Source of the DNA: Lampris incognitus
Lineage: Eukaryota > Chordata > Actinopteri > Lampriformes > Lampridae
Assembly: GCF_029633865.1 (NCBI RefSeq)
Contig: NC_079223.1
Coordinates: 8,102,469 to 8,166,468 of the forward strand
Length of the DNA stretch: 64,000 nt
Direction: 5' to 3'
Translations under genes and position numbers: made by a program
Notes under the pieces: model-generated
Databases searched by the model: none
What the model was told of the DNA's origin: nothing
Seen by the model: only the letters and a program-made list of their open reading frames with translations
Shown here: positions 33,852 through 38,273 of the stretch, piece by piece
How positions within the stretch are numbered: the first letter of the stretch is position 1
Layout: each line of letters opens with the position of its first letter

Positions 33852-34441
33852 GGCCATTTTTAGTGTTATGCAGCCCTTCATGTTTTGACAGAAAAATGGG
33901 GAAAATTATTTTTTTCTCCAAATCCTCAGTGGGTTGGGTAGGCTGTCAATAAATGCATTCCAGGTACACAGAACACGTGTGGTGGCAATATCCACTGAAA
34001 ATATAACTCTTAAAAAACATTTCTACATGATTTGGGATCAATTTAATGCAAAAAATGTAGTCGTTTTTTCACTTTTTTTTCAATAATTTCATCTTTACTT
34101 CAGAGTTATGGCATTAGTCAATATGCCATTCTTTTCACCAAACAGTATACACATTCCACAGAAAAAATTATAAAAATCCAACCAAAATCATTGGTTCTGT
34201 GATGATTTTAGCCCCCAGCGAACGAGTCTAGCCCTTTAGCCGAGCCGTTAGTGATGTCGCCTTGTGGTGCAGTACACACCGTATCGAATCCCGCACCGGG
34301 CAAGAAAATAACCGGTTACACTAATTTGCGATCAACAGGCTCAGAACCTCAGTAGAACTTTGGGCTGCTCTCAAAATTCCGAAAGACATCCTGGATATTT
34401 AAAATGGTTGTTAATGTCCACATTATTAAACATCATGGCCA
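33852..34441 (+). repeat. Left terminal inverted repeat of the 4.4-kb element
   Basis: Reverse complement of 37806-38273, with scattered mismatches, a ~110-bp tRNA-like insertion at about 34215-34325 and a ~30-bp extra segment near its inner end. Confidence 0.85.
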
Positions 34442-34826
34442 AGGCATCGTTTTAATTTTAGCATAACCCTGTTCTCCCAATGGAAATGTGCAACACAATA
34501 AATATAAAACAGCAAAATGATTTTTGTTGCTTTAGTGCGTCAGATGACAAATAATTACAAAAAAATTAAATTAAACTTCAACTGAACAAAATAATGTAAC
34601 ATAACTTGATTAACAAGGTGCAGGTCCCTGTGAGGTGGGATAGTTAGGAGGGTGCCACACTGCAGATACTGCTCTGGGGACAGACCTTCACCCTCACCAC
34701 CTGAGGAGACAGCAAACAAGACAGGCAGGGTGGGTTATACAGCAGCGCAACACAAGATGCACCCCCCCTCGCTCTCTCTCTCTCTCACACACACACACAC
34801 ACAAACACAAACAAGGCCTACTTACG

Positions 34827-37150
34827 TTATGCATCACTGTCTTCAAGCGCAAGTTCAACCCTTGAACATCTGTTGGGGTCCCCGGTGCAGAAACACGAAA
34901 TGCCACACTTCACACTGGCTCTTGCACAGGAGCATCCTCGGGCACACATGCTTTTCTTGCAGCGACAGCATTTGCTGTGTTTGAATTCAGAAGGTTTTGC
35001 CTCCTTCATCATCATGGTTGCCACCAATTTGCCATTGACAAGCTGTCTCTCAAAATCACTGGCAGCCGGGTAGGTAGGCTGAACCATGTGTGCCCGCTTA
35101 CACACCGCCAACTGATGCAGGGCTCGGCGAAGGTGTAACAGGAAGGCATCTTCGGTCGGTGGAAGGCAACGCATGTCTCCTTTGATGCTCGCAAAGAGTC
35201 CAAAGTCACTCCTGTCATAGAGTGACATGATGTATCTGTTATGACCTCTTCCTGAACATCCAAGGCTTTCCTCAGGGTCACCGTACCTGCACAGCGGCAG
35301 AAGGTCTGTCAGGTGTTTAATGGCAGTTGTGTAAGCCCGCCTTTTTCCTCTTCTGTACAGATAGCTCACTGTGTCACATCCGGTAAGTATGTAGGTGCTG
35401 AGGAGAAGGGATGTAAGATCTGCAGCGGCAACATCATACTTCCCTGCCAGAGCTTTCGTGATGGCATGAACAGGTGGGAAGATATCCATCGTCTTCACCC
35501 ACAGCCCCTGCAGGCCGTCCATGTGTGTGATGTAGTACACGCACATCATGATCACATCCGTGTCAGTCGCAACCACTACAGCCCGTTTGTGGTGCAGAAT
35601 TTTTACTGAGTATGCAATGTGAGCAAACATCCTGGTATCTGCCTCCTCATGTTTCTCACAGGAAAGTTCTGGAAGCTCAACCTGACAATCTTCTGACAAC
35701 AGGACAGTGTGACCAGGATCACGGAAGATTCCACCAAGAATAAGTGTGCATCCTGCAGGAAGTGACTTGTTCTGAGCTGCCCATGCTTCTCCCATGTAGT
35801 TCAACAGATTAGCTTCATTCAGTGGATTGTGAATGAAGCCTCTCCATTCAGGTACAGGGAGAGTATCATGTGGCTTGTACTCCTTCATCACCAACAAAGT
35901 GGATGCAGTCTCACTTGTCTGGGATGATTCCGAGGAGCTGCCTCAGGTACTTTCTTTGCAGTTCATGGAAGGTGCTGCTCCCAAGATGTTGGTAACGTTG
36001 AATGAATGCCATCTACTACCATTACAACAGGCTTGTCAGATGGCGGTAGTCTGTCCACTTCCCCCCATGAGCTGCCAAGGACTGTCTCGATTGCAGCCAG
36101 GTAGTCTGCCTCGTTTCCTTTACGCATAGCATAACCTTGGTCAAGGGACGGATCTGGCTCAAACAGGGAGGCTGGGCATCTTGTCCATTCATGACCAAAG
36201 ACTTCCACCTTCCTGTCTTCATCTAAGTCCTGCACAAAGTACAGGTTCCGGACAACTGCACTCTCTTCCTCGTAGACCTTCTTGGCTTTGAATGCCACGG
36301 AGAGTGACTTTTTTGGCTTTGCTGCAAAGGTGGCAAGTTTTATTTGGGCTACTTTCTCACTGTCTGATTTTCTTGCTGCAGCCAGTGCCTCCAGTCCTTT
36401 TTCACGAGCGCTCGCCAAGTCTGCAGATGCGGCTTTGTGGCCTGTTGAGATGTTCATCAGCTCCTGTTCTTCACATGTGAATGGATTGATCATGTGGTTG
36501 TTGATGACATCTGTTATTTTCCTTACACTTTCTGCCTCCTTTGCACCTTGGCTGTTAAAGTCCTCATGGTGTTTGGTGTCATCCATATCCAGGTGTGCCA
36601 TAGGCTTTGTCTGCTCTGACACAGCTGTCAGAACTGGAAGAGCTTTCAAGTATTTCTCCATGGCCGCTGACTGATGCCAGTGAAGAGTTTTGTCTTGGCA
36701 TCACGGTTGTAGGTTTTCTCAAGTGCCATGTCTGTCCAGACACCATTGAACCGTCCTTCTGTTTCACCTACAGTGAACTTCCCATCCTTGAATTCCCTAT
36801 GGATGTTTGGAGCCAGTGTAGGCAGGCTTCTCATTGCTTCTAGGTAGTGCGGCAGGCAGGATACATACTTGTAGTGGCCAGCAGCTACAAGGTATGGTAA
36901 CATGTTTTCTACTGCAGCCAGGTGTTCCTCCCACAGACCTGCACGCTCAGCATGGATGAACCGTTTCAGAATCATCACCATAGCCATGTACGTTAGCCAT
37001 AGCTTTGTGGTAGGTGAGGTACATGCTTCATCAAACTCAGCCATCAAACATGACAGCTTTTTCAGTTGGTCAGTTGCATCAGCACACGCAGGAGATGCCT
37101 TCTCTACGTCCTCTTCTGACAGGGCATCTAGGAGATGGGAAATATTGTAA
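34827..37150 (-). pseudogene. Transposon gene with XPG/FEN-like nuclease signature and Cys-rich C-terminus, frameshifted
   Basis: Three blocks in different frames make one protein: 36646-37150 (FDEACTSPTTKLWLTYMAMV...), 35963-36661 (MEKYLKALPVLTAVSEQTKP... to VVMVVDG) and 34827-35897 (MKEYKPHDTLPVPEWRGFI...). Frames break near 36660 and twice between 35897 and 35990, and an in-frame stop lies in the last gap, so the copy is dead. In the last block EEADTR (residues 84-89), VATDTDVI (109-116) and LTGCDTVSYLYRRGKR (171-187) have the spacing of the acidic and helix-hairpin-helix parts of XPG/FEN nucleases. The C-terminus has about ten cysteines (CCRCKKSMCARGCSCA, then CGISCFC), like Tesmin/TSO1 CXC motifs. 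I recall no named family member with certainty. Confidence 0.7.
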
Positions 37151-37680
37151 ATGGGAAATATTGTGCAGTCAGGTGAAAGAAATCCAGATGTTTGACACTA
37201 CCAGCTAACTAGCTGTTGACAAATCCCCTCTCTCTATATACCGTACAGTACTATATATATAAAAACAAACTATGCATAATAGATAGTTTGTTTACAGCTT
37301 ACAGAACATTTGTATCTTTCAGTACTGTGATATCCAATATAGCTACATTTCATATTTGTGTGGCCATTCATGGCACAAGCTAACGAGCTACAATTTTTCT
37401 AAACCTGAACGTAACAACTGGCCATGTAGCTAATTGCTAACGGTAGCTAGGGCAGCCTATAGTTATCCTTACTAGCCTACTATCTGTCTGACATGAAAAA
37501 CACATCAGCTAATTACCATTACAATATCCATAATTACCATTCTCTTCCCCCAAATGCTGGGACGGACCTATTCACAAAACTCACTGTCACTTGTCACTTA
37601 CCAGAGAAAATGATGAGCAGCTTTGAAGTCCGTTGGTAACCGTTGGTTGCTTGTTCCAAACTCATTCAAATCACTAAGAA

Positions 37681-37808
37681 TGTGTGTGTGTGTGTGTGTG
37701 TGTGTGTGTGTGTGTGTGTGTGTGTGTGTGTGTGTGTGTGTGTGTGTGTGTGTGTGTGTGTGTGTGTGTGTGTGTGTGTGTGTGTGTGTGTGTGTGTGTG
37801 TGTGTGTG
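37681..37808. repeat. TG repeat, about 64 units
   Basis: Uninterrupted (TG)n abutting the inner end of the right terminal inverted repeat. Confidence 0.97.
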
Positions 37809-38273
37809 CCATGATGCTAAATATCCAGGATGTCTCTCGGAATTTGGAGAGTAGCCCAAAATTCTACTGAGGTTCTGAGCCTGTTAGTAGTAAAATCATC
37901 ACAGAACCAATGATTTTGGTTAGATTTTTATAATTTTATGTGTGAAATGTGTATACTGTTTGGTGAAAACAATGGCATATTGACTGATGCCATAACTCGG
38001 GGCCATAGCTGATTGCCAATGAAGTAAATATGAAATTATTGGGGGGGAAAAGTGAAAAAACGCCTCATTTTTTTGCATTAAATTGATCCCAAATCATGAA
38101 GAAATGTATTTTAAGAGTTATTTTTTCAGTGCATGTTGTCACCGCATGTGTTCTGCGTGCCTGGAATGCATTTATTGACAGCCTACCCAACCCGCTGAGG
38201 ATCTGGAGAGAAAAAAATCATTTTTCCCATTTTTCTGTCGAAACGTGAAGGGCTGCATAACACTAAAATGGCC
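37806..38273 (-). repeat. Right terminal inverted repeat of the 4.4-kb element
   Basis: Runs from CCATGATGCTAAATATCCAG to CACTAAAATGGCC and mirrors the left repeat. Confidence 0.85.

Follow-up and report, generated by a model that had tools for sequence, protein, structure and literature searches.

The window, a stretch of 64,000 nucleotides from Lampris incognitus (C16:8102469-8166468, in a genome of 1.48 Gb), contains long inverted repeats that enclose a broken gene with motifs of XPG/FEN-type nucleases. The locus raises the question of what kind of element this is and which enzyme would move it. An initial annotation, made from the letters of the window, described a long-TIR DNA transposon with an XPG/FEN-like nuclease and a CXC-type tail, possibly Academ-like, and raised the possibility of a family that has no DDE transposase and is cut by its PIN-type nuclease. 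Our analysis retains the long-TIR transposon, the nuclease, the CXC-like tail and the Academ-like nature, and parts with the idea of a DDE-free family. With good confidence, we regard the element of the window as a defective and fairly old copy of an Academ-like family that moves by cut-and-paste, has long TIRs (up to ∼ 620 bp) and 3-bp target-site duplications (TSDs), and encodes a product in which a probable DDE transposase is combined with an XPG/EXO1-type nuclease.

Inverted arms and termini of the element

The inverted arms are genuine: 33852-34210 matches 38273-37891 in inverted orientation with 85% identity over 384 columns (E 1e-125), as does a second block, 34334-34401 against 37885-37818, with 94% identity over 68 columns. 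The arm score of 247 compares with a mean of 12.2 for 185 random pairs from the window, among which the top scores (211, then 78.5 and 77.5) are probably due to CA repeats. Positions 33852 and 38273, originally taken as the ends of the repeats, were dropped as termini; both are internal, and other copies align outward beyond them. The element spans 33569-38669, homology to the other copies running that far and a CAT duplication being found on both sides. Its outer features are as follows.

33566-33568: left target-site duplication, CAT
33569-34401 (+): left terminal inverted repeat, terminus TTGTCCGGGATCCACAG, broken by two tRNA-like inserts
33661-33797 (+): tRNA-like insert of ∼ 137 bp in the left arm; the C18 copy has no insert there
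34208-34323 (+): second tRNA-like insert in the left arm, a shorter copy
37814-38669 (-): right terminal inverted repeat, ending ...GGATCCCTGACTA
38670-38672: right target-site duplication, CAT

The terminus of the family reads TAGTCAGGGATCCACAGG. Position 34401 is the final base of the left arm that matches the right arm, and in the right arm ∼ 93 bp have been exchanged for ∼ 336 bp of unrelated sequence (38274-38609). A long GT microsatellite (37681-37808) adjoins the right arm on its inner side. The ∼ 137-bp tRNA-like repeat, some words of which we take to be A- and B-box-like, is also present in inverted orientation at 33305-33439 and in the C10 copy (L038 6872-7018); ARAGORN and Rfam scans of the window gave no hits. 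At the inner end of the arm, the copies L036 and L038 carry the word TAGTTTGCGATCAACAGG, which resembles the outer terminus and is perhaps a second binding site.

Copies in the genome and target-site duplications

A genome search with the left arm returned at least 76 matches (40 of 976 candidates scored), many of them as pairs of inverted arms. The arms are not unique to the locus, in agreement with the multicopy family that had been anticipated. Long arms were found in the window and in seven further places by self-comparison. The longest element, the C18 copy (L035, ∼ 7.25 kb), has arms of 622 columns that are 95% identical; the main arm match covers 449-621 columns in the other six. K2P values between the arms range from 0.048 to 0.091 in seven copies, with 0.090 for the window, as would be expected of old insertions.

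TSDs were counted at 14 places with the termini pattern TAGTCAGGGATCC...GGATCCCTGACTA, allowing up to four mismatches, and both ends were located in ten. Seven of these ten have identical 3-bp flanks (about 0.16 of ten expected by chance), namely CAT in the window, ATA in C17, TTA in C10a, CTG in C1a, ATT in C1b, CAA in C24 and ATT in C11. No TSD was found in the three remaining both-ended copies, C18, C10b and C21. Left out of the count were C9b and C25, in which one end lacks the pattern, and C9a and C3, where the match at one end was to the inner-arm word only; in C9b a CTA duplication can be read by eye if one lost base is allowed in the right terminus. Taken together, the arms, the TSDs and the number of copies support a long-TIR DNA transposon. 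In the C21 copy (L040) the flanks immediately beyond the two ends, GCTGGCCGA and its complement, are themselves inverted with respect to each other, and this copy looks as though it sat inside another palindrome.

The broken gene of the window copy

The gene between the arms lies on the minus strand and consists of several open stretches that are out of frame with each other.

34827-35942 (-): open stretch, C-terminal part of the XPG/EXO1-like nuclease and Cys-rich, CXC-like tail
35884-36012 (-): N-terminal piece of the nuclease in another frame (MAFIQRYQHL...IHFVGD), with an internal stop and frame breaks on both sides
35966-36700 (-): open stretch with the linker region and the first strand of the nuclease (VVMVVDG)
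36646-37128 (-): open stretch covering the C-terminal end of the transposase region; its ALEKT motif contains the candidate third acid
37134-37146 (-): junction at which ∼ 2.58 kb of the C18 copy (L035 4837-7414) are absent
37603-37665 (-): putative short 5' exon, MSLEQATNGYQRTSKLLIIFS

At the junction, positions 37134 and 37146 of the window correspond to 4836 and 7415 of L035. In the C18 copy the absent part encodes the first ∼ 700 residues, including the FDNLD, ITCDQ and MGGFH motifs; ALEKT stays in the window, which keeps only residues 666-705 of the 705-residue N-terminal frame of that copy. Of 20 other stretches that were searched, 8 contain a match to the putative 5' exon; several of them are halves of one place. 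An intron from 37603 to 37128 was first accepted for the window copy, and the longer copies then showed that this interval covers the missing part; the acceptor near 37128 is therefore doubtful. With ∼ 2.6 kb of the gene missing and the remainder frame-broken, production of a functional transposase from the window copy is highly improbable.

The probable transposase region of longer copies

No DDE signature had been seen initially. This holds for the window copy alone, because the relevant part is missing from it, and fails for the family, the longer copies of which carry D-D-E-like motifs. Three of their N-terminal open frames were translated (664, 705 and 732 residues) and contain the motifs FDN(L/I)D, ITCDQ and MGG(F/I)H. 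Motifs of the D, DQ, FH and E type precede the nuclease in the longer copies, and likewise in two families of divergent relatives. Among the correctly aligned rows with letters at these positions in an alignment of nine rows (A4), the first Asp is conserved in 2 of 2, the second Asp in 4 of 4 and the Glu in 5 of 5; the rows that cover the first Asp are the family itself and a divergent family with a 1483-residue frame. L018 was excluded from the counts of the Glu and of the nuclease acids, its row being misaligned beyond about column 415. In a structural model of a divergent relative, the block of residues 251-300 has pLDDT values of 54-70, and the rest of the transposase half is mostly lower. 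One of five proteins with the transposase region matched Pfam DUF6589 (7.6e-5, 22 bits, under the cut-off of 27), and two trimmed parts of the region gave no match to it. DUF6589 is presumably a fungal family; a literature search found no paper that names it. From its motifs, we regard the N-terminal half as a probable RNase-H-like DDE transposase domain.

These data bear directly on the proposal that the family has no DDE transposase and relies on its PIN/XPG-type nuclease for cutting at the ends. Such an enzyme would suit the window copy, which keeps just the nuclease half and the ALEKT region, and it would suit the model of the relative, in which the nuclease fold is clear and the transposase half has low pLDDT. 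It is at odds with the N-terminal half of the longer copies and of two divergent families, where the D-D-E-like set of acids is conserved and which is mostly missing from the window copy. Strand joining, moreover, is not known for two-metal 5'-nucleases, which hydrolyse DNA. A nuclease in place of the transposase is in our judgement highly improbable, and we retain the DDE transposase as the probable cutting enzyme.

Divergent relatives

A protein search with the C18 frame yielded at least 85 matches (81 of 2280 candidates scored), which comprise near copies and divergent families with about 25-36% identity, some of them in uninterrupted frames as long as 1116 residues. A second search, with L060 from one of these families, gave at least 95 matches (82 of 2936 scored), including the 1483-residue open frame on C1. 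Divergent families with the same domain order have frames of 1111, 1116 and 1483 residues; the 1111- and 1116-residue frames begin past the first acid.

Many relatives in the L055 family lie within ∼ 3 Mb of C14 (about 51.4-54.5 Mb), some with frames of more than 1000 residues, and such clustering is unusual for dispersed transposons. In several comparisons, pairs from the L054-L059 family also differ less at the second position of the codon (e.g. 21, 9, 20), which suggests that this family may be under some constraint. Both observations could be accommodated by a host or tandem-duplicated gene that came to lie between unrelated inverted repeats by chance. For the window's own family that explanation is contradicted by the occurrence of the same gene within the same arms at many places, with TSDs. 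Furthermore, ten pairs within this family differ about equally at all three codon positions, a pattern that would be typical of decaying repeats. We therefore consider a chance enclosure exceedingly improbable and treat the gene as that of the transposon.

The nuclease domain

The motifs that first pointed to a nuclease are present on the minus strand: EEADTR at 35631-35648, TDTDV at 35553-35567 and GCDT at 35370-35381. The metal-binding acids (D, D, ExE/D, DxD, GxD) correspond to seven positions of A4, each occupied by an acid in every correctly aligned row with letters there (7 or 8 rows). Their spacing pattern, which was drawn up after viewing the query, occurred in 1 of 300000 shuffles. 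In L054, L055, L056, L058 and L059, GCDT is changed to GRDT (ARDT in L054) and the acid is kept.

The modelled protein is not that of the window; it is a relative that shares 23% identity with P0001 of the window's family. Its nuclease part (residues 751-1110) has pLDDT values mostly of 70-90, with dips to 50-57. All 50 fold matches listed, drawn from Foldseek's top 1000 chains, are EXO1, FEN1, XPG/Rad2, GEN1, archaeal, T5 or bacterial FEN, plastid exonuclease 1 or XRN/Rat1. The XPG/FEN-like nuclease is thus upheld by the predicted fold of the relative and by the acid pattern, and the nuclease core of this relative, which aligns with the frames of the window's family, is predicted to have the fold of the XPG/FEN/EXO1 superfamily.

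At the level of sequence, the nuclease gave no match in Pfam, in PDB sequences or with a profile of four archaeal FEN1 sequences, the score of which (15.3) is at the level of 40 column shuffles (mean 15.0, maximum 22.7). Single-sequence structure prediction for the window's 370-residue stretch (pLDDT 34) gave no usable model. Searches with the open stretches of the window returned nothing useful from Pfam, NCBIfam, PHROGs, PDB sequences, plasmids, phages or viral contigs. In prokaryote genomes 13 stretches carried the pattern, none of them related; six further prokaryote stretches (L001-L006) were taken for chance matches. EXO1, FEN1, XPG and GEN1 are 5'-nucleases with a common fold over ∼ 250 residues and a common acid set, which the element's nuclease is predicted to share; it shows no significant sequence similarity to them, and the product to which it belongs also contains a transposase region and a Cys-rich tail. 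No scanned protein reached a Pfam cut-off, and annotation pipelines may therefore leave copies of the element as unknown proteins.

The Cys-rich tail and domain order

The Cys-rich tail lies at 34887-34976 on the minus strand. The CXC-type C-terminus proposed for it finds weak backing in matches that are all sub-threshold (Pfam TCR, E 0.093 for L063 and 0.2 for L064; LIN54, E 0.058). The order shared by the rows of A4 is transposase region, linker, nuclease and Cys-rich tail. A Cys/His-rich N-terminal region was read by eye ahead of the transposase domain.

Classification and proposed mechanism

Placed by published description, the element most likely belongs to the Academ superfamily and, within it, to the nuclease-bearing AcademX type; the family is of a largely known kind and not of a new one. 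The nuclease of AcademX is of the XPG type. The wording of PMC10045372 is 'nuclease', and excerpts of that paper give TSDs of 3 or 4 bp for AcademX and of 9 or 10 bp for AcademH, apparently tied to the nuclease and the helicase respectively. The 3-bp TSDs found here support the Academ-like nature that had been suggested. As far as the excerpted description goes, AcademX and this family have in common the 3-bp TSD, the TIR ends and the presence of a nuclease and a probable DDE transposase in one element; the CXC-like tail and the ∼ 620-bp arms may or may not typify AcademX. AcademH, of the same superfamily, likewise has a second enzyme beside the transposase, but this is a helicase and the TSDs are 9-10 bp, whereas the present family has a nuclease and 3 bp (PMC10045372). 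According to excerpts of PMC9587614, Academ is one of the DDD/E superfamilies, and KolobokE, KolobokD and KolobokP also combine a DDE transposase with an accessory nuclease, but one with a lambda-exonuclease-like, DEDDh or His-Me fold and not of the XPG kind seen in this family. Curated bivalve Academ elements have a mean length of 5565 bp according to PMC10294476. Excerpts of PMC10799480, PMC4705583 and PMC5753468 added nothing on the nuclease.

The same combination of a DDE transposase with an XPG-type nuclease could also define a separate, non-Academ superfamily. No Pfam family reached the cut-off on the proteins scanned or on their parts, and the likeness to Academ is to its published description. 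The CXC tail, to our knowledge, is not a listed feature of Academ. On the other hand, the 3-bp TSD and the nuclease match what the excerpts of PMC10045372 describe for AcademX, and Academ elements are reported from other fishes, namely zebrafish, medaka and stickleback, in the excerpted text of PMC4746887. We consider a separate superfamily unlikely and keep the assignment to AcademX.

The family unites a probable DDE transposase with a nuclease that has the predicted fold of EXO1, FEN1 and XPG, enzymes of DNA repair. The whole product would be one protein, as the 1483-residue open frame of a divergent relative suggests. In this protein the DDE part would cut and join at the element ends, the nuclease would either process the ends, acting there on 5' flaps or on the second strand, or aid repair, and the CXC tail may bind DNA. 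We speculate further, and regard this as distinctly unlikely, that the EXO1/FEN-like domain works in transposition itself: the DDE domain would make the first cut and carry out strand transfer, and the 5'-nuclease would remove the non-transferred strand or trim flaps, thereby setting the duplication at 3 bp, compared with 9-10 bp in the helicase-bearing sister lineage. The 1483-residue open frame in one of the divergent families makes it testable how the two catalytic sites share the work.

Surroundings of the element

A large open exon at 22693-23925 (-) encodes part of a receptor of the rhodopsin type (Pfam 7tm_1, E 6.7e-34) that resembles a glycoprotein-hormone receptor. The transposon is located upstream of this exon on the minus strand and may lie in or near the receptor gene. 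A reverse transcriptase fragment at 30558-31454 (-) (Pfam RVT_1, E 1.1e-7) is probably of the LINE type, and a tandem array with a 41-bp period (32295-32786) is found just outside the element.
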